From Xenorhabdus griffiniae (lineage in GTDB: Bacteria > Pseudomonadota > Gammaproteobacteria > Enterobacterales > Enterobacteriaceae): DNA of 64,000 nucleotides. The translations under genes and the position numbers were made by a program. The stretch lies in contig NZ_CP147737.1 of NCBI RefSeq assembly GCF_037265215.1, positions 310,001 to 374,000 on the forward strand, in the 5' to 3' direction. Numbering within the stretch: position 1 is the first letter of the stretch; every line of letters starts with the position of its first letter. Below are positions 3-11,770 of this stretch, one piece after another. The notes under the pieces are model-generated. The model ran no database searches, had not been told where the DNA came from, and saw nothing but the letters and a program-made list of their open reading frames with translations.

Positions 3-3000
3 ATCGCCCAGGGCAGTGAATCCGTCTTTATCAATGGTCAGCCGGCGGCTCGTCAGGGTGACAAGCTGGCCTGTGGCGCGACCATCAAGAGTGGCGCCAG
101 TAAAGTCTTTATCGGCAGCGGTCAGGGCACCTATCTGGACATCGCGGAAGAATTTTCTGGCTGGCAACGGGCGTTACTGGTGGCGGTGGAATTTTTAGTG
201 CCGCCAACGCGGGGCATGGGCAAAGGGCTGGGTAAGCTGCTGACCCAAACTGGCCGGCAGGCGGTGCTGACGGGCGCAAAACTGGGGGCTAAAAAAGTGG
301 GCCCTGCCCTGAAGGGCCGGCTGATTTGTGTCAAAACCGCGTTTACCACCCATAAAGGGGTTAAACGTTTCACGCAGGCCGCCAAAAAATTCTTCACAGG
401 CGACCCGATAGACGTGACCACCGGCAGCCTGTTTGACCAGCGCACCGAGTTTGAACTGGGGCAAACGCTACCGCTGCACTTTACCCGCAGCTGGTCGCCG
501 GGGCAGTGGGGCCTGCTGGGGGAGAACTGGTTCGATAATTTCTCGGAATGCGTGCTGGTGACAGGCGACCGGATAGAAATCCTGACCCCCGAAGGGGCTG
601 CCCTGCATTTTGCGCTGCCCGCCAGCGTGGACCACAGTATCAATCCGGAGCACCCGGAATTTACGCTGAGCCGGCAAAAACAGGGCTTTGTCCTGAGCGA
701 GCGCAATCATCCGGTGCGTAAATACTTCACCCGGTTAGCCCGCACCGAAGCGAAGACGGAACAACGCTGGTTACTCACGGAACACCGTGATCGCAATGGC
801 AATGCCGTGCGTTTTCACTATAACGACACCCATCAACTGGAAACAGTCACCCACAGCGATGGGCCGGCACTGCGGTTGTACTACCGTGAAGATGGCCGGC
901 TAACCGATATTCGCCGCACGGATAACGGTCTGGATGCCGTGATGGCGCATTATGATTATCACGCCGATTGCCGGCTGGCTGAGGCCGACAGTACCCAGCA
1001 TTTTCATCTGTTTTATGAATACAACGATCAGGGACTGATCAGTCGCTGGTCGGATGGCGACCAGACGGCGGTCGATTATACCTATGATACGCAGGGCCGT
1101 TGTATTCACAGTGTGGGCAGCGGCGGGTTCTATCCGGTGCAACTGACCTATGAGCCGGGCATCACCCGTTCCACCACGCCACAAGGTCACACCACCACCT
1201 GGCATTACACTGACCAACAACAGGTCACCCAGGTCGAAACTCCGTGTGGTCATGTCACGCGTTATCAATACGATGAATGGGGCAACCTGCGCCAGCAGAT
1301 TTTACCGGAAGGACACACCCTGACGTTAGATTATCTGGCGGATAGCGGGCTGGTCACCGCCTTGACGGATGCGACCGGCGCAACCTGGCAATACCACTAC
1401 GATGAGGCTGACCGGCTGATCAGCATGACCGATCCGCTTGGGCGGGTCTGGTGGCAGCAATACGATGACAGGGGCAATGCGGTCTGCTTTATTGCCCCCG
1501 ATGGCCGCAAAACCACGCTGACGCGTAATGAATTTGGCCTGGTTATCGCGGCGGAAGAGGATGAAGGGCATAAACGCACCTGGGAATATGACCGCCATCA
1601 TCGCCTGAGCAGACTGTTTGATGAAGAGCACCGCAGCCTGCGATTGGGTTACGACAGCCATGACCGGTTGCAGCGGCTGGCCTCGGGAGGCGGGGCCTTA
1701 TGGCGGTGGGAATACGATCGCCATCATCGGGTGGCGCTCAGCGATCGGCCGAACAACAGCCTGGAGCGTTTTCGTCATGACCGGCACGGTAACCTGACCG
1801 AATGGACGGATGCGCGCGGCGTGTCATGGCATATCGAATACGGGCCGTTTGACTTACCGGTGGCGCGGGTGGATGGGGAAGGCCATCGCTGGCAGTATCG
1901 TTATGACCCGGACAGCCTGCAACTGCTTGAGGTCATCAATCCGCAAGGGGAAAGTTACCGCTATACGCTGGATGCGGACGGGCGGGTGGTTACCGAAACC
2001 GACTATGCCGGCACGCAATGGCGCTATGCCTATGACGGTAACGGCAACTGCAGGGAAAAACGGGATGCGCTGGGGAATATCACGCGCTTTGAGTACGATG
2101 CGGCCGGCCGCCTGACGGCGATGCACACCCCGGAAGGCACCACGGCCTACCAATACGATATACTGGGGCGTTTACTGGCTGTCACGGCACCTGACAGCGC
2201 ACCGCTGACGTTTGAATACGATGAGAAAGACCGCATCGTGAAAGAAACGCAGCCCCACGGTGAAATCCGGCGTGCTTACCCGGACAGTGCGCGCGTCGAA
2301 AGCACCTATCATCCGGTGGACGGGCCGCACTGGTCGGTCACCGTTGAAACGAATGCGGTCGGGGAACTGAAACAGGTCCGCCTGAAGGGGGAACATGTTC
2401 TCCGTATAGAACGGGATGAAGACGGGCACGAGTGGCATCGCCAGTCGGATAAAGGGTTTATCCTGCGTCAGGAACATGCCCTGATGGGGCAACTGACCGC
2501 GCAGCGTGCCGGGCGCAATACGGCGTTTTTTGAGGCCCACGAGGTAGCTGATATTCCGTCGCCCACGTTGGCGGGGCTGGACAGGGAATACCGTTACGAT
2601 GCGGCGCTCAATCTGGTGGCGGCCAATGATGAGCGGCAGTGGCTGCGCTATGTGGTGAACGGTAACGGGCAGGTCACCTCAGTCAGTGACGGCGAGCGGT
2701 TGCGGGAACATTATCAGTACGATGCCTGCGGTTACCCTGCCCGCCGTTTTGATGGTTTGCACGACATTGACGGGGAGCGGCTCTACCAACAAGGCCACCG
2801 GCTACGCCAAGTCGGTCAACACCTGTTTGAATATGATGAAGCTGGTCGGATGACGGCCATGCAGCTTTGGCAGGAAGGCCACCGCCCGCAACTGACCAAG
2901 TTCCGCTGGAACAGCCAGAACCAGTTGATTGGGGTGCAGACCCCGGGCGGCCAGCAGTGGGCCTATCGCTACGATGCTTTCGGGCGACGCACCGAAAAAG

Positions 3001-3911
3001 TGTGTGACTCATCGGGCGAGCGCACGACTTATCTGTGGGATGGGGATGTGCCGACGGAAATTCGGGAGTACCGGCATAACCGGTTGCACTGTATCCGCCA
3101 TCTGGTGTTCGACGGCTGGCAGTTACTGGCGCAGCAGGTGCAGTTTTTCACCCCGAATCCGGAAAACCGCCATGAATTGCTGGCCGGAAAAATCCAGACG
3201 CAGTATGCGGTGTGTGCCCCAACAGGGGAACCGCTGGCCTTGTTCGATGAAGCCGGTCATCGGGTTTGGCGCCAGCCAAAGCAAAGTCTGTATGGGCTAC
3301 AGCTTGATTTTTCCGGTGAAAATGCGGCACTGAATCCGGGCTTACAATTTGCCGGTCAGTGGCTGGATGACGAGAGCGGGTTAGTCTACAATCGGTTCAG
3401 GTATTACTCGCCGGTGGCAGGGCAGTATCTGACACCCGACCCTATCGGTTTAGCCGGAGGGGAGAATCCGTATGCTTACGTTGGAAATCCGACGATTTGG
3501 ATCGATCCACTAGGGCTGGCTGGATGTTGGACGGCTAAAAATGTCGTTGGAAGAAAAGTTTATCAGCGAAATGATTTATTTGACCCGCATCATATTGATG
3601 AATATGGAAGAACAAATATTCAACGAATGAAGAAAGGGCAGGCGCCCATCGGTAAAGACGGATTAGAAGTAAACCTCCATCACGTCACTCAAGATGAACC
3701 CGGTCCAATGGCTGAAATTTTGAGTAGTACTCATAGTAAGCATGATCGTAAGTTGCATATGTTCTCTAATCAGTGGGATAAAACGTGGGTTGGCCCTGAT
3801 GGCGTAAGGCGTAGATATAATAGTGCACCACCATCAATGAACAGGCGTCCATTTAACCGCTGGAAGAAAAAATATTGGAAAGCAAGAGCGTTGGACTTTT
3901 TAATTCCTTAA
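3..3911 (+). CDS. PAAR-Rhs polymorphic toxin with LHH nuclease tip (5' end outside window)
   Basis: The reading frame is open from the window edge, so the true start lies upstream; a GTG at 180 is internal. The first 40 or so visible residues (GQPAARQGDKLACG, then IGSGQ) are the end of a PAAR domain, which caps the type VI secretion spike. A long RHS/YD-repeat core follows, closing with the paired DPIGL...DPLGL motif that marks the autoproteolytic boundary. The variable tip is about 130 residues (3519-3908) and contains GLEVNLHH followed by a second His-rich stretch, as in LHH nucleases of the HNH/EndoVII superfamily. Inference: a T6SS-delivered DNase used against competitors. A SUKH immunity gene starts 14 bp downstream. 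The tip is AT-richer than the core, typical of Rhs tip exchange. No T6SS structural genes are visible. Confidence 0.9.
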   Translation: MAQGSESVFINGQPAARQGDKLACGATIKSGASKVFIGSGQGTYLDIAEEFSGWQRALLVAVEFLVPPTRGMGKGLGKLLTQTGRQAVLTGAKLGAKKVGPALKGRLICVKTAFTTHKGVKRFTQAAKKFFTGDPIDVTTGSLFDQRTEFELGQTLPLHFTRSWSPGQWGLLGENWFDNFSECVLVTGDRIEILTPEGAALHFALPASVDHSINPEHPEFTLSRQKQGFVLSERNHPVRKYFTRLARTEAKTEQRWLLTEHRDRNGNAVRFHYNDTHQLETVTHSDGPALRLYYREDGRLTDIRRTDNGLDAVMAHYDYHADCRLAEADSTQHFHLFYEYNDQGLISRWSDGDQTAVDYTYDTQGRCIHSVGSGGFYPVQLTYEPGITRSTTPQGHTTTWHYTDQQQVTQVETPCGHVTRYQYDEWGNLRQQILPEGHTLTLDYLADSGLVTALTDATGATWQYHYDEADRLISMTDPLGRVWWQQYDDRGNAVCFIAPDGRKTTLTRNEFGLVIAAEEDEGHKRTWEYDRHHRLSRLFDEEHRSLRLGYDSHDRLQRLASGGGALWRWEYDRHHRVALSDRPNNSLERFRHDRHGNLTEWTDARGVSWHIEYGPFDLPVARVDGEGHRWQYRYDPDSLQLLEVINPQGESYRYTLDADGRVVTETDYAGTQWRYAYDGNGNCREKRDALGNITRFEYDAAGRLTAMHTPEGTTAYQYDILGRLLAVTAPDSAPLTFEYDEKDRIVKETQPHGEIRRAYPDSARVESTYHPVDGPHWSVTVETNAVGELKQVRLKGEHVLRIERDEDGHEWHRQSDKGFILRQEHALMGQLTAQRAGRNTAFFEAHEVADIPSPTLAGLDREYRYDAALNLVAANDERQWLRYVVNGNGQVTSVSDGERLREHYQYDACGYPARRFDGLHDIDGERLYQQGHRLRQVGQHLFEYDEAGRMTAMQLWQEGHRPQLTKFRWNSQNQLIGVQTPGGQQWAYRYDAFGRRTEKVCDSSGERTTYLWDGDVPTEIREYRHNRLHCIRHLVFDGWQLLAQQVQFFTPNPENRHELLAGKIQTQYAVCAPTGEPLALFDEAGHRVWRQPKQSLYGLQLDFSGENAALNPGLQFAGQWLDDESGLVYNRFRYYSPVAGQYLTPDPIGLAGGENPYAYVGNPTIWIDPLGLAGCWTAKNVVGRKVYQRNDLFDPHHIDEYGRTNIQRMKKGQAPIGKDGLEVNLHHVTQDEPGPMAEILSSTHSKHDRKLHMFSNQWDKTWVGPDGVRRRYNSAPPSMNRRPFNRWKKKYWKARALDFLIP

Positions 3912-3924
3912 GAGGAAGGAAGCG

Positions 3925-4395
3925 ATGAGTTATATAGATTTAATTGAAAAGGAAATGATAGCAAGCGGGGAAGAAATTCTTTCTAGTGGCGGAGCTGATA
4001 TAGATACCATTAGTAAGTTTGAGTCATTACTTGGTGTTACCTTTCCTGAGTCATATAAAATTTTCTTACAGAAATATGGAACGCTTGCTTTTGGCGGGGA
4101 TAATTATTACGGAGTAACTAAAAAAGGTATAAATGGAGATCAAGCCCCATGTGTTCTGTATGTTACAAAGCAGGCTAGAGATGCAGGTGATATAGATGAA
4201 GGGATGATTAAAATAAAATCATCAGGATATGGACCTTCTTATTCTATTGATACTAATACTATAGGAAAGACAGGAGAGGCTGTTATTGTCGAAACTGAAT
4301 TATCTTTCAAAAGAGATGGTGTCAAAAATATCATTGCAGATAGCTATGCTGAGTTTCTTTTAACAGAAATAAGAGAAGCTATAGAGGATTTATAA
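3925..4395 (+). CDS. SUKH (SMI1/KNR4-type) immunity protein
   Basis: This 156-residue cytosolic protein follows the Rhs nuclease tip after 13 bp and is preceded by an AGAGGAAGGAAG ribosome-binding site. Residues 28-55 (FESLLGVTFPESYKIFLQKYG) match the SMI1/KNR4 signature of SUKH immunity proteins, the commonest partners of nuclease tips in polymorphic toxin systems. It should neutralise the LHH tip of the upstream Rhs. The specific pairing is inferred from adjacency. A strong hairpin-plus-T terminator follows the stop codon. Confidence 0.85.
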   Translation: MSYIDLIEKEMIASGEEILSSGGADIDTISKFESLLGVTFPESYKIFLQKYGTLAFGGDNYYGVTKKGINGDQAPCVLYVTKQARDAGDIDEGMIKIKSSGYGPSYSIDTNTIGKTGEAVIVETELSFKRDGVKNIIADSYAEFLLTEIREAIEDL

Positions 4396-4418
4396 TCGCT
4401 ATTTATATTAATAAGCAA

Positions 4419-4447
4419 CAAGCCAGAAAAATCTGGCTTGTTTTTTT
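4419..4447 (+). terminator. Rho-independent terminator after immunity gene 1
   Basis: A nine-base-pair stem (CAAGCCAGA / TCTGGCTTG) with an AAAA loop is followed by seven T residues, 24 bp after the SUKH stop. It ends the rhs-immunity transcript and separates it from the convergent symE-like gene. Confidence 0.85.
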
Positions 4448-4460
4448 GAAATAAAATCTT

Positions 4461-4787
4461 TTATTCCGCCTGATAATCCCCAATTAGCTCCCGCATCCGT
4501 AGCTTAATCTCACTGAGCTGGTCTTGCTGGTACTGTTGCTTAATGGTGCGGGTGTCGTCGCTGTCAGGAATAAGCACCAGACAGCCGTCCATAATCTTGA
4601 CGGTGAGAGTGCCACCAATCTCAAACCCAACCTGCTTAAGCCATTGGCCTTTCAGGTGGATCGCAGGCGGGGCATTGGCCTTGTCATTTTGCGGCACGTA
4701 TCCCACGGTGTAATAACGTTCTGTTTTGGCGGCTTTATTTACCGCGCGGTTTTGCTTAGAATACCTACCAAAACCCCGCCAAACCAA
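4461..4787 (-). CDS. SymE-like protein, copy 1 (start uncertain, possibly 5'-truncated)
   Basis: The 108-residue frame contains the SymE core: YTVGYVPQ, then [15 protein letters not shown] and the VKIMDGCLVLIPD segment, followed by a charged helical tail. In E. coli SymE is an SOS-induced, AbrB-fold-like toxin controlled by an antisense RNA. Here the gene is convergent with the rhs-immunity unit. The only start giving the full frame is TTG at 4787, and the first about 15 residues do not look like SymE. The GC-rich segment upstream may therefore have replaced the native 5' end. Copies 2 and 3 (6289-6521 and 8496-8640) share its 3' part. Family assignment is firm; activity is doubtful. Confidence 0.75.
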   Translation of the reverse strand: MVWRGFGRYSKQNRAVNKAAKTERYYTVGYVPQNDKANAPPAIHLKGQWLKQVGFEIGGTLTVKIMDGCLVLIPDSDDTRTIKQQYQQDQLSEIKLRMRELIGDYQAE

Positions 4788-4789
4788 AA

Positions 4790-5386
4790 CACCGTGTGCC
4801 CCCGTTCGGCTAAGACCGAGTCTTCTTTAGCTGCCTTGTGTTGCTCAGGCCAACAACCCTGTAGGCAGGTCGGCCTGCGGCCTCCGCTAAGTGACCTCCC
4901 CCGCCCCAACCCCGCTGCACTGGCTGCGCCCGGCTCGCAGTCGCTGCGCTCCTCGCTCGTTACCGTGCTCGCCATCTTCGCCCCATGCAGCCCCCCGCAG
5001 GGGGCTTCCCTTGAATAAAGCGGTCATGCAAAGCCGTGCTCAATTTGAAACGCCGGTGATCCAGAGCGTCGCAGGGCGCCGCTTGCGGGCTCTGTGCCGC
5101 CCGCCCCCGCAGAACGGCCGCCCGCCGCCCGGCAAGCCGGGCAGCGTTCGCCCGTTGCCGAAAATGAAAAACCGCACAAAATCAGGTTGCTCAGCGCATC
5201 AAAAGGCAAACCGGAAGCTATACTGCACAACAGCTTGCGGCGGTAGCGTGGCAAACAATCCCAAAAGGTGCGTCGGGGGTAAAAAAGTGATCGGGGCAAA
5301 ACCGACTCAATCGGCTGCTTCGGAAGCCTTGCCCTGCGCGGGCTGGCGCTGCCCTACGGGTATGACTGCCTCGGAGATGATGGCTC
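4790..5386. other. GC-rich segment between Rhs cassettes 1 and 2, no supported gene
   Basis: About 600 bp, clearly GC-richer than the flanking tips, with several short palindromes (for example GCCCCCCGCAGGGGGC near 4991-5006 and CCGGCAAGCCGGGC near 5131). Open frames exist on both strands but have the low-complexity Arg/Pro/Ser composition of non-coding GC-rich DNA and no recognisable domain. It ends exactly where Rhs-core homology restarts, just after an in-frame stop at 5378-5380. I read it as a transferred or rearranged fragment, of unknown origin. Confidence 0.5.
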
Positions 5387-5929
5387 TTTGCCGGCCAGTG
5401 GCTGGATGACGAGAGCGGGTTAGTCTACAATCGGTTCAGGTATTATTTGCCGGTGGCGGGACAGTATCTGACGCCGGATCCGATTGGGTTAGCTGGAGGC
5501 GTAAATTCGTATGCTTACGTGCCTAATCCTACAAATTGGATCGATCCACTAGGTCTAAATTCTAAAAAATGTCAGTATGTTTACCGAGAATTAAGCGTTG
5601 AAGATCGAATTAGATTCGATGCAGGATTAAGCATACAGCCTAAAGGAACAGGGGGATCAATCGCCGCTCATGTTGATGGAAAACCTACAGGGTTTGTTTC
5701 GGTTGCTGAAGTGCGGGACGCAACTGAAAGATTTTCTTCTGGCAGTGGATTAGTGCGTATTGATGTTAAAAAAGCGACCCAAAATGGAGCAACATATATT
5801 CCTCATAAAAATGTTATGCAAACAGTTAATTCACAAGGTTCACTACAAAATAGAAAAGATGCCAAAAGAGCAGTGGAAGGTTTATTTAAAGGTGAAATCC
5901 CCCATAAGGCTATTGAACTTATAAAGTAG
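5387..5929 (+). pseudogene. Orphan Rhs C-terminal cassette 2, ART-like toxin tip
   Basis: Homology to the end of the Rhs core starts at [11 protein letters not shown] (5387) and runs through the DPIGL...DPLGL boundary. A novel tip of about 123 residues follows (5558-5926). An in-frame TGA at 5378 precedes the homology and there is no ATG; TTG 5447 is the only candidate start, so this is a displaced tip, not a full Rhs. The tip opens with VYRELS, has GFVSVAEV near its middle and closes with [12 protein letters not shown]. That order (Arg, Ser, late Glu followed by LFxG-IP) resembles the R-S-E arrangement of ADP-ribosyltransferase toxins. This is an inference from motifs only. The small downstream gene is its likely immunity partner. 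It could be silent, or expressed from a start within the core remnant. Confidence 0.7.
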
Positions 5930-5937
5930 GAGAAAAT

Positions 5938-6228
5938 ATGCCAGCATTATCAGAGTATTCCAGTGTAACAAATACCGTATTTAATATTTTAGATAAGAAA
6001 GGATATAATATATGGTATAACAAGAAACTAGATATGTATTGTGCCGAGAAAGATGGTTGGGATTTCATGGCAGATTCTCCTTGCGGCTTGCTTGGTGTTA
6101 TATCTATATATGAATTTAAAAAACCAGAAAAATATCAAGAATATTGGTGGCGAGACGAAGAGAAAGACTTATTAGAGAATTTAAGCGATACATCACCAGA
6201 ATATACATCTGTTATACATAATAAATAA
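5938..6228 (+). CDS. Predicted immunity protein for Rhs cassette 2
   Basis: This 96-residue soluble protein starts 8 bp after the cassette 2 toxin, with an AGGAGAAAAT ribosome-binding site. It is rich in aromatic and acidic residues (KDGWDFMADSP, YWWRDEE), common in small toxin-neutralising proteins. I do not recognise a named family. Position, spacing, AT-rich composition and size all argue for immunity against the ART-like tip. It ends before a long inverted repeat at 6245-6276. Confidence 0.65.
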   Translation: MPALSEYSSVTNTVFNILDKKGYNIWYNKKLDMYCAEKDGWDFMADSPCGLLGVISIYEFKKPEKYQEYWWRDEEKDLLENLSDTSPEYTSVIHNK

Positions 6229-6244
6229 TGTTTAATTAAATTAT

Positions 6245-6276
6245 AATTGTCCGGCTAATTAACTGGCCGGACAATT
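6245..6276. terminator. Inverted repeat, probable bidirectional terminator
   Basis: AATTGTCCGG pairs with CCGGACAATT across a 12-nt loop, lying between the convergent immunity gene 2 and the symE remnant. No long T tract follows on either strand, so termination strength is uncertain. Confidence 0.5.
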
Positions 6277-6288
6277 AATTACCCTATT

Positions 6289-6521
6289 TTATCCTGCCTG
6301 ATAATCCTCTATCAACTCCCGCATCCTAAGCTTAATTTCACTGAGCTGATCCTGCTGGCGCTGGTACTGTTGCCTGATGGTGCGGGTGTCGTCGCTGTCA
6401 GGGATCAGCACAATGCAGCCATCCATAATTTTAACGGTGAGTGTGCCGCCAATATCAAATCCGGCCTGCTTAAGCCACTGCCCCTTGAGATGGATCGCAG
6501 GCGGGGCGTTGGCCTTATCAT
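6289..6521 (-). pseudogene. SymE-like copy 2, 5'-truncated
   Basis: Residues from about [18 protein letters not shown] to the C-terminus match copy 1 closely, with a QRQQ insertion in the tail. Homology stops at 6521, where Rhs-core sequence begins in the opposite orientation. The frame continues for about 10 residues into antisense Rhs sequence and has an ATG there, but that N-terminus is not SymE. The YTVGY N-terminal strand is missing, so function is unlikely unless the fused product is stable. Confidence 0.75.
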
Positions 6522-7914
6522 CGGGCGCAATACGGCGTTTTTTGAGGCCCACGAGGTAGCTGATATTCCGCCGCTCACGTTGGCGGGGCTGGACAGGGAA
6601 TACCGTTACGATGCGGCGCTCAATCTGGTGGCGGCCAATGATGAGCGGCAGTGGCTGCGCTATGTGGTGAACGGTAACGGGCAGGTCACCTCAGTCAGTG
6701 ACGGAGAGCGGTTGCGGGAACATTATCAGTACGATGCCTGCGGTTACCCCGCCCGCCGTTTTGATGGTTTGCACGACATTGACGGAGAGCGGCTTTACCA
6801 GCAAGGCCATCGGTTACGCCAAGTCGGTCAACACCTGTTTGAATATGATGAAGCTGGTCGGATGACCGCCATGCAGCTCTGGCAGGAAGGCCACCGCCCG
6901 CAACTGACCAAGTTCCGCTGGAACAGCCAGAACCAGTTGATTGGCGTGCAGACCCCGGGCGGCCAGCAGTGGGCCTATCGCTACGATGCTTTCGGGCGAC
7001 GCACCGAAAAAGTGTGTGACTCATCGGGCGAGCGCACGACTTATCTGTGGGATGGGGATGTGCCGACGGAAATTCGGGAGTACCGGCATAACCGGTTGCA
7101 CTGTATCCGCCATCTGGTGTTCGACGGCTGGCAGTTACTGGCGCAGCAGGTACAGTTTTTTACTCCGAATCCGGAAAACCGCCATGAATTGCTGGCCGGA
7201 AAAATCCAGACGCAGTATGCGGTGTGTGCCCCAACAGGGGAACCGCTGGCCTTGTTCGATGAAGCCGGTCATCGGGTTTGGCGCCAGCCAAAGCAAAGTC
7301 TGTATGGGCTACAGCTTGATTTTTCCGGTGAAAATGCGGCACTGAATCCGGGGCTAAAATTTGCCGGTCAGTGGCTGGATGAGGAGAGCGGGCTGGTCTA
7401 CAATCGGTTCAGGTATTTTTCGCCTGTTGCAAGTATGTACCTGACGCCCGATCCTCTGGGATTAAATGGTGGTCTTAATCCTTATTCTTATGTTAAAAAC
7501 CCAACAAGCTGGGTTGATCCATTTGGCTTATCAAGCTTTAATGCATTTGAATTAGCTCAAAGAAAAGCCAAAGAAGTCAGGGAATACAGTAAAGCTAATG
7601 GAATTAGGAGACCAACAGCTACAACGGTTGTTAAAAATACCAGAACAGGTGATGTATTCTATGGTTTTAGTGGCATTAAACCTCAAAAAATCTCAGCAAG
7701 ACTTGGTGTTGAAATGCCTTCTAAAAGTTTAGAACCTTGGTCAGTAAATAACTGTGGTGAAATTGATGCAGTTAATAAGGCCATAAAAGGTGGTTCTTCT
7801 CTTCATGACTTAGAAATGGCAACAGTGCGAACTGGTGATGGAAGTGCATTTCCAAAATGTAAAAACTGCCAATATACATTCAACCGTTTGGGTATCAAAG
7901 TATTAACAGGATAA
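6522..7914 (+). pseudogene. Orphan Rhs core fragment with deaminase tip (cassette 3)
   Basis: From 6522 the DNA repeats the last third of the upstream Rhs core (its 2511-3420) with few differences, running into DPLGL...DPFGL and a 127-residue tip (7531-7911). The tip has NCGEIDAVNKA and, about 30 residues later, PKCKNC. This CxE plus CxxC pair is the zinc and catalytic signature of the cytidine-deaminase superfamily used by YwqJ-like polymorphic toxins. The frame is open upstream through antisense symE to an ATG at 6370, which is unlikely to be a real start. There is no PAAR or N-terminal half, so it is a displaced tip that could be recombined in-frame onto the full Rhs. A SUKH-3 gene follows after 3 bp. 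Confidence 0.8.
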
Positions 7915-7917
7915 AAT

Positions 7918-8370
7918 ATGTGTTATTCATTTAATAATGCAATAAAGGAAACATTACTTATAAATGGGTGGTTTCCTAATAGGTCAATAAATATTGATAA
8001 ATATTTATCTGTGCTAAAGGAAAAAGGTTATTACGTTCATAATAATGCTCTGAAATTTTTTCATAATTTGGGAGGGATAAAGGTTGAACATGAAGCTTAT
8101 GCGGATCCAACAGATATAGATGTAAGTGATTTTACTCCGACGAAGCCAGCAAATTGGCTAGATCCATTATGGGTAGAACACTATGAAAGCATAATTAAAA
8201 ATAGATTATGTCCAATAGGTATAGGCTTTTCTGAACATATGACATTTTTCCTATCTGAATCAGGTGGTATTTATGGTGGATATGATGATTATTTTTGCTT
8301 AATAGGAAATGATATAGAATTGGCACTGCAAAATTTATTTTTTGATCATGACTTTACTCAATTAGAATAA
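7918..8370 (+). CDS. SUKH-3-type immunity protein
   Basis: This 150-residue protein starts 3 bp after the deaminase cassette. It has NGWFPNRSIN near the N-terminus, a central HNLGGIKVEHE, and a C-terminal CPIGIGFSEHMTFFLSESGGIYGGYDD. That series (GWFPxR, FLxxxGG, CPIG, IYGG.DD) is characteristic of the SUKH-3 immunity family, which often partners deaminase tips. Its role as antidote to cassette 3 is inferred from family and adjacency. Confidence 0.8.
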   Translation: MCYSFNNAIKETLLINGWFPNRSINIDKYLSVLKEKGYYVHNNALKFFHNLGGIKVEHEAYADPTDIDVSDFTPTKPANWLDPLWVEHYESIIKNRLCPIGIGFSEHMTFFLSESGGIYGGYDDYFCLIGNDIELALQNLFFDHDFTQLE

Positions 8371-8495: not shown

Positions 8496-8640
8496 TTAGT
8501 TGCTTTTATAGTCCCCAAGTAGTTCCCGCATTTTCAGTTTGATCTCACTGAGCTGATCTTGCTGGCGCTGGTACTGTTGTTTAATGGTACGGGTGTCGTC
8601 AGTATCAGGAATCAGCACCAGACAGCCGTCCATGATCTTG
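8496..8640 (-). pseudogene. SymE-like copy 3, 3' remnant only
   Basis: On the minus strand the sequence reads KIMDGCLVLIPDTDDTRTIK and on through LRE-type tail residues to GDYKSN-stop. This is the last about 48 residues of the same SymE-like protein as at 4461 and 6289. Homology ends at 8640, after which unrelated AT-rich sequence begins. It marks the downstream edge of the third Rhs cassette. Confidence 0.75.
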
Positions 8641-9336
8641 AAGATGAAAGAGAGACGACTTTATCATTTTGGTGTAATTATGTTGATGGCAATGATGGAA
8701 TTAGAAAATTTAAAGATAAGCCACTTTTAATAGCGCGATTAGCTATCTGCTTTTTGCCACAGGGTATGTAAGGTATGTGAATGTAAAAGCATACTGATAT
8801 GTATAAGTTGCCAGTATTTCCTTTCTTTTTCTGATTATTTCTTAATGTAACAAATCAGACACACGTGATCGTCCTAAAACTATCATAAAATCACGTTAGC
8901 AACTATTTGTCTGGTTTATTATTTGCTTACCATGTTTTTCTATTTGAAATCAAAAAAAACGCGGGTACAATTACATTACTTTTTAGTCATCCAGAGTGTC
9001 CCTGTATAGCTCTCTTGATGCTAAATATTCGGAGTAAGCATCTATTTTTATCTTGTAAACCATACTCAAGATACCAAATAGCAATTGTATAACAATCGCT
9101 TGTAAGTAATAAGTGATGTTGAATTGTCTCCACAATTCAAGATTTATCCTCATAATTCTAAAAATATCAGACTGTTGTTGGAAAGGCAGAATGGCGTGTT
9201 TTTGCCTGGATTTATCAGTGCCGTGATGCACGATGTTGCGATAAAAATGAAGTTGTAAAGTTCAGAAGGAATAATATCAATTACTTGATTTTAAAGGTTA
9301 ATATTCCAAGACCGTTTTCTCATATCAAATTTGATT
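8641..9336. other. AT-rich gap after the Rhs array, no supported gene
   Basis: About 700 bp with only short open frames. One, in plus orientation, ends at 8771 (tail KDKPLLIARLAICFLPQGM) and could be the tail of a lost gene. I see no rRNA, tRNA, CRISPR or complete IS here. The junction at 8640 cuts a symE remnant, so this is probably rearrangement debris. Confidence 0.4.
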
Positions 9337-10927: not shown

Positions 10928-11770
10928 ATGTTAAGTTATCGCCACAGCTTCCATGCCGGCAACCACGCTGACGTGTTAAAGCACGTAGTACAAAGCCTGA
11001 TCATTGAGTCGCTTAAAATAAAAGAAAAACCTTTCCTGTATCTGGATACTCACTCTGGTGCAGGTCGCTATCATTTGAGTGGAGAACATGCCGAACGTAC
11101 GGGAGAGTATCTGGAAGGTATTGCCCGTATTTGGCAGCGTGATGATATCCCCGAAGAATTGGCGGCGTATATGGATGCTGTGAAAGCGCTGAATCCACAA
11201 GGCACTTTACGTTATTATCCAGGTTCTCCGCTGATTGCCAGCCACTTATTGCGGGAGCATGATGAGCTTAATCTGAGTGAATTGCATCCCAGCGATTTTC
11301 CTCTGTTACGTACGGAATTTTCCCGCGACAGACGTGCTCGTGTCCTGCGGGAAGATGGTTTCCAGCAGTTGAAATCAAAACTACCACCAAAAAGCCGTCG
11401 TGGGTTTGTACTGATTGATCCGCCTTATGAATTGAAATCGGATTATCTGAATGTCGTCCAGGGTATTCAGGAAGGGTATAAGCGCTTTGCTACTGGTACT
11501 TATGCTCTGTGGTATCCCGTTGTTCTGCGTCAGCAGATTAAACGTTTGGTGAAGGGATTGGAAGCCACGGGTATTCGTAAGATTTTACAAATTGAACTTG
11601 GTGTGCGTCCTGACAGTGATCAACGGGGTATGACGGCATCAGGTATGATCGTCATTAATCCACCGTGGAAATTAGAACAGCAGATGAAGGTCGTGTTACC
11701 GTGGCTGCATCAGGTATTGGTTCCTGAAGGCACAGGACATACATCAGTAGAGTGGATTGTCCCTGAATAA
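10928..11770 (+). CDS. rlmJ: 23S rRNA (adenine-2030-N6)-methyltransferase
   Basis: This 280-residue protein is the usual length for RlmJ and begins MLSYRHSFHAGNHADVLKH, the family's conserved N-terminus. SAM-binding residues lie in the LDTHSGAGRY segment (about residues 39-48). The catalytic NPPY-type motif appears as LIDPPYE near residue 164. It methylates A2030 of 23S rRNA, using SAM. It is followed by gorA in the same orientation, as in E. coli. An AGGAAAT ribosome-binding site precedes the ATG. Confidence 0.97.
   Translation: MLSYRHSFHAGNHADVLKHVVQSLIIESLKIKEKPFLYLDTHSGAGRYHLSGEHAERTGEYLEGIARIWQRDDIPEELAAYMDAVKALNPQGTLRYYPGSPLIASHLLREHDELNLSELHPSDFPLLRTEFSRDRRARVLREDGFQQLKSKLPPKSRRGFVLIDPPYELKSDYLNVVQGIQEGYKRFATGTYALWYPVVLRQQIKRLVKGLEATGIRKILQIELGVRPDSDQRGMTASGMIVINPPWKLEQQMKVVLPWLHQVLVPEGTGHTSVEWIVPE

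Follow-up and report, generated by a model that had tools for sequence, protein, structure and literature searches.

Close to its start, the 64,000-nucleotide stretch of Xenorhabdus griffiniae DNA analysed here (the window) carries a gene for the toxin-delivery protein PAAR-Rhs followed by two displaced Rhs toxin tips (Table 1), and we judge with a probability of about 0.9 that this array would be the residue of repeated landings by an integrative element which carries a toxin tip together with its immunity gene. In the loci compared the element sits at fixed codons of the rhs core (the VENN codons of cdiA in the case of related elements), where its left end continues the host reading frame, so that the delivery protein gains the tip and the immunity gene of the element. 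The old tip and the old immunity gene are found behind the right end, and repeated landings give rise to tandem arrays. The window itself no longer has the mobility genes; tip 1 is on the Rhs protein, and tips 2 and 3 are displaced beside relics of the element. The unit, its ends, the target codons, the diversity of the cargo, a pair of empty and filled sites and the decay in the window are established from sequence, and we infer that the recombinase would perform the integration via a circular form that the primase helps to replicate, that newly gained tips would be expressed and used by the host and that SymE would have a role within the element.

The element was recognised because the spacer sequences of the window (symE and GC-rich DNA) recur at fixed spacing. 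In the 4.77 Mb genome of the same strain 18 symE matches were found, 5 of them with equal score, and the GC-rich stretch recurs as well, five times at a constant distance from such a symE. The antisense symE genes and relics (4461-4787, 6287-6521 and 8508-8650) and the GC-rich DNA at 4812-5386 are the most important features absent from the preliminary description of this DNA. The order of the complete unit is rhs core tail with toxin tip and immunity gene, symE and an RstR-like repressor gene (both on the opposite strand), a CHC2/Toprim primase gene, a XerC-like tyrosine recombinase gene, GC-rich DNA and a right end of 27 nt. Five copies of 7,057 bp are present in this genome, placed in four rhs genes with one copy in tandem behind one of them; the tandem pair repeats every 7,057 bp, which is also the target-to-target length of the other copies measured. 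A second, decayed copy (repressor and broken primase pieces; L141, 12025-12907) adjoins an intact one. In the copies of this genome the primase has 904 aa and the recombinase 348 aa, and the latter scores as PRK01287 'XerC' (507 bits, cut-off 371) with the R, K, HxxR, H and Y columns invariant in all 15 recombinases aligned. The repressor scores as RstR family, and SymE lies above the cut-off of PF08845 but below that of the NCBIfam SymE equivalog (60.3 vs 132 bits). With PADLOC the primase matched 2 DRT models and the repressor 16 models, and the recombinase and SymE matched none. Three known classes were tried and rejected: an integron (integrase models score 127 and 78.7 bits vs cut-offs of 265 and 435), a gamma-mobile-trio (GMT) element (the GmtY model gives 19.4 bits vs a cut-off of 340) and a phage origin, as none of 50,697 phage records matched the primase at E 1e-45.

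The GC-rich part is about 700 bp long and is assumed to be noncoding, one copy having two open reading frames (ORFs) of 159 and 165 aa in it. A scan of one element region matched no Rfam family in this stretch. When 8 copies were folded jointly with RNAalifold, double changes occurred in 19 of 169 pairs, yet the covariation term was unfavourable (+2.27), therefore a structured RNA is not claimed; a hairpin in the stretch shows some compensatory changes. It may be added that this DNA behind the recombinase gene (L139:9882-10600 and its equivalents) is roughly 72-81% identical between rhs- and cdiA-linked Xenorhabdus elements, the recombinases of which are just about 40% identical, and that the stretch in the window is 84.5% identical to its equivalent in a cdiA-linked element. 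It is possibly an origin.

Across 42 recombinases checked, the primase gene lies directly upstream and in the same direction in every case (42/42), and symE runs in the opposite direction in 37. The cargo is diverse, 52 tips in 26 loci (some loci fetched twice and displaced tips included) falling into 37 groups. These figures bear on the alternative in which the unit of primase and recombinase would be a small island of an ordinary kind, brought close to rhs tips by chance, with the tips as chance passengers. SymE genes and recombinases are frequent mobile cargo, which counts for such an island, as does the scope of the survey, genomic context having been looked at for a minority of the symE matches and targets worked out for loci other than L207, L208 and L210. 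The constant gene order, the left end which lies in frame inside rhs, and the use of the matching pre-toxin position by the cdiA relatives all oppose it, and we regard it as extremely improbable.

The left boundary is seen on comparing copies. The rhs hosts of the copies at 856 kb and 4576 kb are 65-71% identical upstream, with the last mismatch at -4, and 100.0% identical from the GACCCGATCGGG codons (Asp-Pro-Ile-Gly) onward over the 4,500 bp compared, and in other copy pairs the upstream identity reaches 99%. The boundary is the GACCC codon of PDPIGL, through which the host reading frame runs into the element. As one copy retains its own GATCCC at the boundary (mismatches at +2 and +5), the comparison suggests a crossover inside GAYCCSAT. 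At the right boundary the old rhs resumes 27 nt past a GTAT-like motif in the conserved end. On scanning for the S1 pattern in 16 loci picked for having it, 25 of the 48 sites had a GTAT-like motif exactly 27 nt upstream, and the other 23 comprised 18 cases of core, 4 of stops and 1 of a different motif. A second count, independent of the target site, began from the recombinase and covered 42 stretches, among them 32 copies of the rhs type for which 900 nt or more of DNA was available downstream. The end motif stands behind 29 of these 32 recombinases and each time a known rhs target follows 27 nt on, which is PDPIGL in 21 cases, an FxGQ-type site in 4 (the site used by loci L223 and L224), FDGLNEIDG in 2 and FRWNSQNQ in 2; a further site in L140 was placed by eye. 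On these alignments the unit sits at fixed rhs core codons, most often GAYCCSAT of PDPIGL.

In E. coli both the empty and the filled state of one site are available. Primase DNA occurs in 59 of 5,426 complete genomes (most of it in 55), and the right end in 55 of the 5,426, in 1-6 places each. We compared the locus between narZ...pptA and VgrG...ansP in several strains. In Ec-U9-1 and A34 (the latter with rhs as three annotated genes) rhs leads directly into a tip, T0, and its immunity gene, and this is the empty state. In the filled strains EC10 and SCU-113 (in SCU-113 rhs is annotated with an internal stop) another tip is on rhs and T0 lies further down. Between Ec-U9-1 and EC10 the difference is 16,714 bp between duplicated GACCC sites, with the right-end motif at the second; the left flank is 99.4% identical to the codon and for 76 nt beyond it (where the cores are similar), and the right flank is 99.97% identical from the codon exactly. 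At least two units and an insertion sequence (IS) lie within the EC10 insert, which is hence not the product of one event. MP1 and A20 appear to carry other tips with elements at the same codon.

The element primase (at least 57% identity, which sets it apart from DnaG matches of about 30%) was found in 23 of 30 Xenorhabdus genomes, in one of them just as a 58-residue fragment. It is present at 49% identity or more in at least 12 of 391 genomes from other genera of the order, and at E 1e-45 in 11 of 368 other genomes in a sample of the class. Among plasmids, 26 of 72,556 records have it, 13 of them from Leptospira, with about 38-45% identity among the matches listed. A Leptospira noguchii plasmid (NZ_CP091955.1, L246) has a 40% identical primase, a repressor and a recombinase behind a large 'peptidase M23' gene, a set which may be a remote relation from another phylum.

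Beside cdiA tips, more distant relatives were found in three genomes: the X. griffiniae genome itself (1,222.5-1,242 kb), that of X. szentirmaii and G326. In X. szentirmaii CdiA the protein reads AAKNA|VENN and two units follow in tandem, the two right ends being alike up to the VENN codons and having different tips behind; in the X. griffiniae cdiA locus the first unit does not directly adjoin the host VENN. Compared visually, the end of the cdiA type (TTCGCATCGGAGTGAGTTGTT) is similar to that of the rhs type (GACTGCATCGGAAATGATG...). On one plasmid from Enterobacter and one from Pseudomonas, genes of this kind have annotated neighbours that are cdiA-like. From the X. szentirmaii locus it is read that the cdiA relatives occupy the matching pre-toxin position (VENN codons). 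Three loci (L207, L208 and L210) are distant relatives of the element, and the right side of L208 has an Rhs-like 'EYNYFRNYD' stretch. Two circular plasmid records are largely element DNA: one of 11,289 bp from Lonsdalea populi with two units, the right end at both junctions, and one primase and one recombinase annotated, and one of 8,758 bp from Shigella flexneri with, in addition, a core stretch and an IS. No other replication gene is listed on either record in the PLSDB gene table, which is incomplete.

Returning to the window, X. mauleonii carries tip 1 and its immunity gene on an intact element, two of which stand in tandem, and in X. szentirmaii the carrier of tip 3 and its immunity gene is likewise an intact element, sitting on a full Rhs. 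Between tip 1 and its counterpart on an element-borne Rhs of X. mauleonii the identity is 95%. Positions 3315-4762 are collinear with 4698-6150 of the X. mauleonii element (L222) at 89.5% identity, and 4812-5161 correspond to 11021-11375 of it, with homology from 4812 continuing to 5382. By this alignment the window copy is the X. mauleonii element type minus about 4.87 kb, a loss that takes in the repressor, primase and recombinase genes. The core fragment of tip 2 starts exactly at the element right end (5386/5387), and on such matches the window spacers are relics of a site-specific integrative element. Another rhs relic at 4,448-4,462 kb of the same genome (L042) has a core fragment that starts as in the tip-2 module of the window, along with a symE gene.

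A number of points weigh against the element as the source of the array. No excision, circle or integration event has been observed, integration and circular forms being read from sequence. The end motif is loose, its chance expectation being about 0.3 per stretch and 12.7 over 42 stretches against 30 that have it, and hence it is the constant 27-nt distance to the target that carries evidence; by BLAST the junction at the FRWNSQNQ site is at 28 and not 27 nt. The 3 of 32 rhs-type copies which lack the motif are all in L218 and re-enter rhs at DPFGL past a stop. (In L218 the three copies stand in tandem; their DPFGL re-entry point coincides with the start of the tip, and the tips that follow differ from copy to copy.) The 10 cdiA-type or unresolved copies lack the rhs-type end motif, bar one chance-like match. 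By similarity, the repressor was not found in 12 of 42 copies and symE not in 5 of 42. The circular records could be tandem arrays collapsed in assembly, the period of an E. coli array (about 8.8 kb) being similar; they lend support to a circular stage, short of proof. Lastly, at junction 6521/6522 of the window a cut symE is joined to core with no right end, and the 1-kb core copy behind it is longer than any target found explains, so deletion and/or homologous recombination is needed there.

The preliminary description had taken the array for a set of long core repeats across which recombination could put either displaced tip in frame onto the PAAR-Rhs. The repeats are real. On self-comparison of the window, 2510-3509 and 6522-7521 align over 1000 nt with no gaps and 55 mismatches (94.5%), the shorter match before tip 2 (3348-3517 vs 5387-5556) is 86% identical, and 5387-5548 vs 7360-7521 is 76% identical; the core copies stay in frame with their tips. 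Taken further, homologous recombination alone may be held to have built the array and to switch the tips, with no dedicated element. This agrees with the long in-frame repeats and with the homogenised cores described below, and homologous recombination is the accepted view as given in the available part of PMC10539506 (papers cited here and below are cited for such parts). For orphan rhs in Salmonella homologous switching has been shown, where a 522-bp repeat of 95% identity makes it possible to join an orphan tip to the main gene (PMC3967940). Several observations oppose homologous recombination alone: the boundary falls on the same codon in rhs genes that differ, the unit found between tips bears a recombinase, the distance from right end to target is constant, and E. 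coli has the site both empty and filled. As the only process behind the array it is contradicted by the boundaries, right ends and E. coli pair, and we consider it very unlikely; as a secondary process it is likely.

The secondary role is visible in the cores. Over 677 nt the main and displaced cores are 97.3% identical within the window genome and 92.8% within VH1 (of the 30 genomes searched, the sole other member of the species, with another main tip and the same displaced tip 3), and between the two genomes main vs main gives 87.0% and displaced vs displaced 85.4%. In the last 110 nt preceding the tip the two displaced copies are 90.9% identical and the other 5 pairs 67-75% (main vs displaced in the window, 69.1%). 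Tip 3 with its immunity gene is 99.3% identical (843/849) between the window and VH1. The last 110 nt of core goes with the tip and not with the genome, and within a genome the cores seem to have been homogenised as far as a point some 110 nt short of the tip. Core-to-core gene conversion would keep displaced cores alike and could return an old tip to the main gene, and a core-to-core tip switch is plausible as a second step after the landing of an element. Tip switching by core recombination is therefore feasible, with the frame kept and the copies seeming to exchange sequence, but the array was not built that way alone, and in the genomes examined no window tip was seen to have moved by homologous recombination. 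Main tips do vary in related strains, as VH1 differs, yet tip 3 is on a full Rhs just in X. szentirmaii and there with an intact element. The protection attributed to the retained immunity genes holds for an unswitched cell facing switched siblings; a switch by deletion would remove immunity gene 1 (and also 2 in the case of tip 3), so the switched cell would be exposed. The same lost-immunity problem is raised in PMC3967940, which proposes prior duplication.

As regards the genes themselves, the PAAR-Rhs gene is a full ORF of 1451 aa whose start lies upstream of the window, preceded by IcmF/TssM, VgrG and DcrB genes, and the LHH nuclease tip named in the preliminary description is borne out by PF14411 in the whole protein (E 1.9e-23). 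That both displaced tips have their own immunity genes stands for tip 3 (SUKH-3, PF14433); immunity gene 2 has no Pfam family at cut-off and is named by position. The proposed ART-like nature of a displaced tip is unsupported, the sole Pfam match of tip 2 being DUF7587 (E 0.019, below its curated cut-off), and an ADP-ribosyltransferase is rejected for it. The deaminase name is weak, since tip 3 gives just YwqJ-deaminase (E 0.0085) and dCMP_cyt_deam_1 (E 0.016), both below curated cut-offs. Apart from its own genome, tip 2 had matches in two of the 30 genomes searched, one with a tip of 58% identity and the other with a piece of 44 residues. An imperfect 34-nt inverted repeat at 6244-6277, behind immunity gene 2, is perhaps a terminator.

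Table 1. Features of the array in the window (positions of the window).
Feature	Position	Strand	Basis
PAAR-Rhs with LHH nuclease tip 1 (about 3519-3911)	3..3911	+	ORF and Pfam
Immunity gene 1, SUKH family	3925..4395	+	PF14568, E 8e-22; 98% identical partner in X. mauleonii
symE 1, left-hand element relic, antisense to rhs	4461..4787	-	PF08845, E 2.8e-21; collinear with X. mauleonii element to 4762
Deletion scar	4763..4811		About 4.87 kb (repressor, primase, recombinase) of X. mauleonii element gone
GC-rich right part of element, apparently noncoding	4812..5386	+	Main block about 79-85% identical to other elements compared
Element right end, 27 nt	5360..5386	+	GTAT motif, spacing as in other right ends; rhs core from 5387 (BLAST)
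Rhs core fragment in front of tip 2, displaced (site FAGQWLD)	5387..5556	+	86% to 3348-3517
Displaced tip 2, putative toxin tip	5564..5929	+	ORF
Putative immunity gene 2	5938..6228	+	ORF and position
symE 2 relic, truncated at 6521 by the start of Rhs core	6287..6521	-	83% to 4459-4687; PF08845, E 1.9e-16
Displaced Rhs core copy 2	6522..7521	+	94.5% to 2510-3509
Displaced tip 3, weakly deaminase-like	7528..7914	+	90% identical tip on full Rhs with intact element in X. szentirmaii
Immunity gene 3, SUKH-3	7918..8370	+	PF14433, E 3.6e-16
symE 3 remnant	8508..8650	-	81.8% to 4473-4609

The array in its present state may be kept as an immunity bank, with the mobility genes dead, the displaced tips presumably unexpressed and immunity genes 2 and 3 kept against neighbours armed with those tips. 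This is compatible with an origin by element landings, and we give it somewhat less than an even chance. It fits the deletion of the mobility genes while immunity gene 3 is 98.7% identical to the VH1 copy, the in-frame stop codons upstream of the core fragment of tip 2 (5387-5556) and the start of the tip-3 ORF, a TTG inside the antisense symE. Tip 3 itself is equally conserved (99.2%), however, and not just its immunity gene.

Tyrosine-recombinase integrative elements can land in a gene and supply its new 3' end, as the e14 prophage does in icd. The tip-carrying element is like these in its XerC-like recombinase, fixed attachment site and supply of the host gene end, and differs in that the replaced end is a toxin domain with an immunity gene and the targets are Rhs or CdiA delivery proteins. 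Orphan rhs-CT/rhsI arrays (Koskiniemi et al. 2014, PMC3967940) also have a full rhs followed by displaced tip-immunity pairs, but the agent there is homologous recombination and here a site-specific element with its own recombinase. In the polymorphic toxin tip cassettes (Zhang et al. 2012, PMC3482391) tip and immunity gene likewise move jointly onto a constant delivery gene; in the part of that paper at hand this is by recombination with standalone cassettes, and XerC/D is placed just beside polyimmunity loci and not as a tip carrier. The SymE/SymR type I toxin-antitoxin system (PMC1891008) shares the SymE domain gene, which here is part of a mobile unit and antisense to rhs; as to a SymR-like antisense RNA, the Rfam scan of one element region gave no family. 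In Erwinia two SymE genes lie beside a toxin linked to the type VI secretion system, with no element named in that portion of the account (PMC7764402). The contact-dependent growth inhibition cluster of Proteus mirabilis (PMC11278526) has cdiA alike up to VENN, the old tip displaced downstream and symE between orphan cdiA-CT modules, and no recombinase-bearing element is proposed for the tip change in the available text. Four syntenic PAAR loci are specific to one X. griffiniae subspecies (PMC11566119, section 17, where no element is described), and these may be the element-bearing copies reported here. Where the literature consulted discusses tip exchange, it invokes homologous recombination, or else recombination whose agent is not named. 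The open literature searched, which consisted mostly of titles and abstract starts with subscription papers and preprints outside its scope, gave no description of an element of this kind.

It has long been asked by what means polymorphic toxins acquire new tips, and the literature consulted here answers with homologous recombination in the core. We lean slightly towards a broader proposal, that widespread self-replicating circular toxin-tip elements, each with a primase and a recombinase of its own, would insert in frame at pre-toxin codons of polymorphic toxin genes from different secretion systems (PDPIGL or other core codons of Rhs, VENN of CdiA and possibly further targets, even in Leptospira). 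They would equip the delivery protein with a new tip and the new host with protection through the immunity gene, and would be behind much of the tip diversity so far credited to homologous recombination. A dedicated element that targets pre-toxin codons would be a concrete engine for tip change and would predict which rhs genes can be re-armed. It would also explain why displaced tips, symE and XerC/primase genes cluster beside rhs and cdiA. Since E. coli has the empty, filled and multi-copy states, rates of tip replacement would be measurable in a well-known species.

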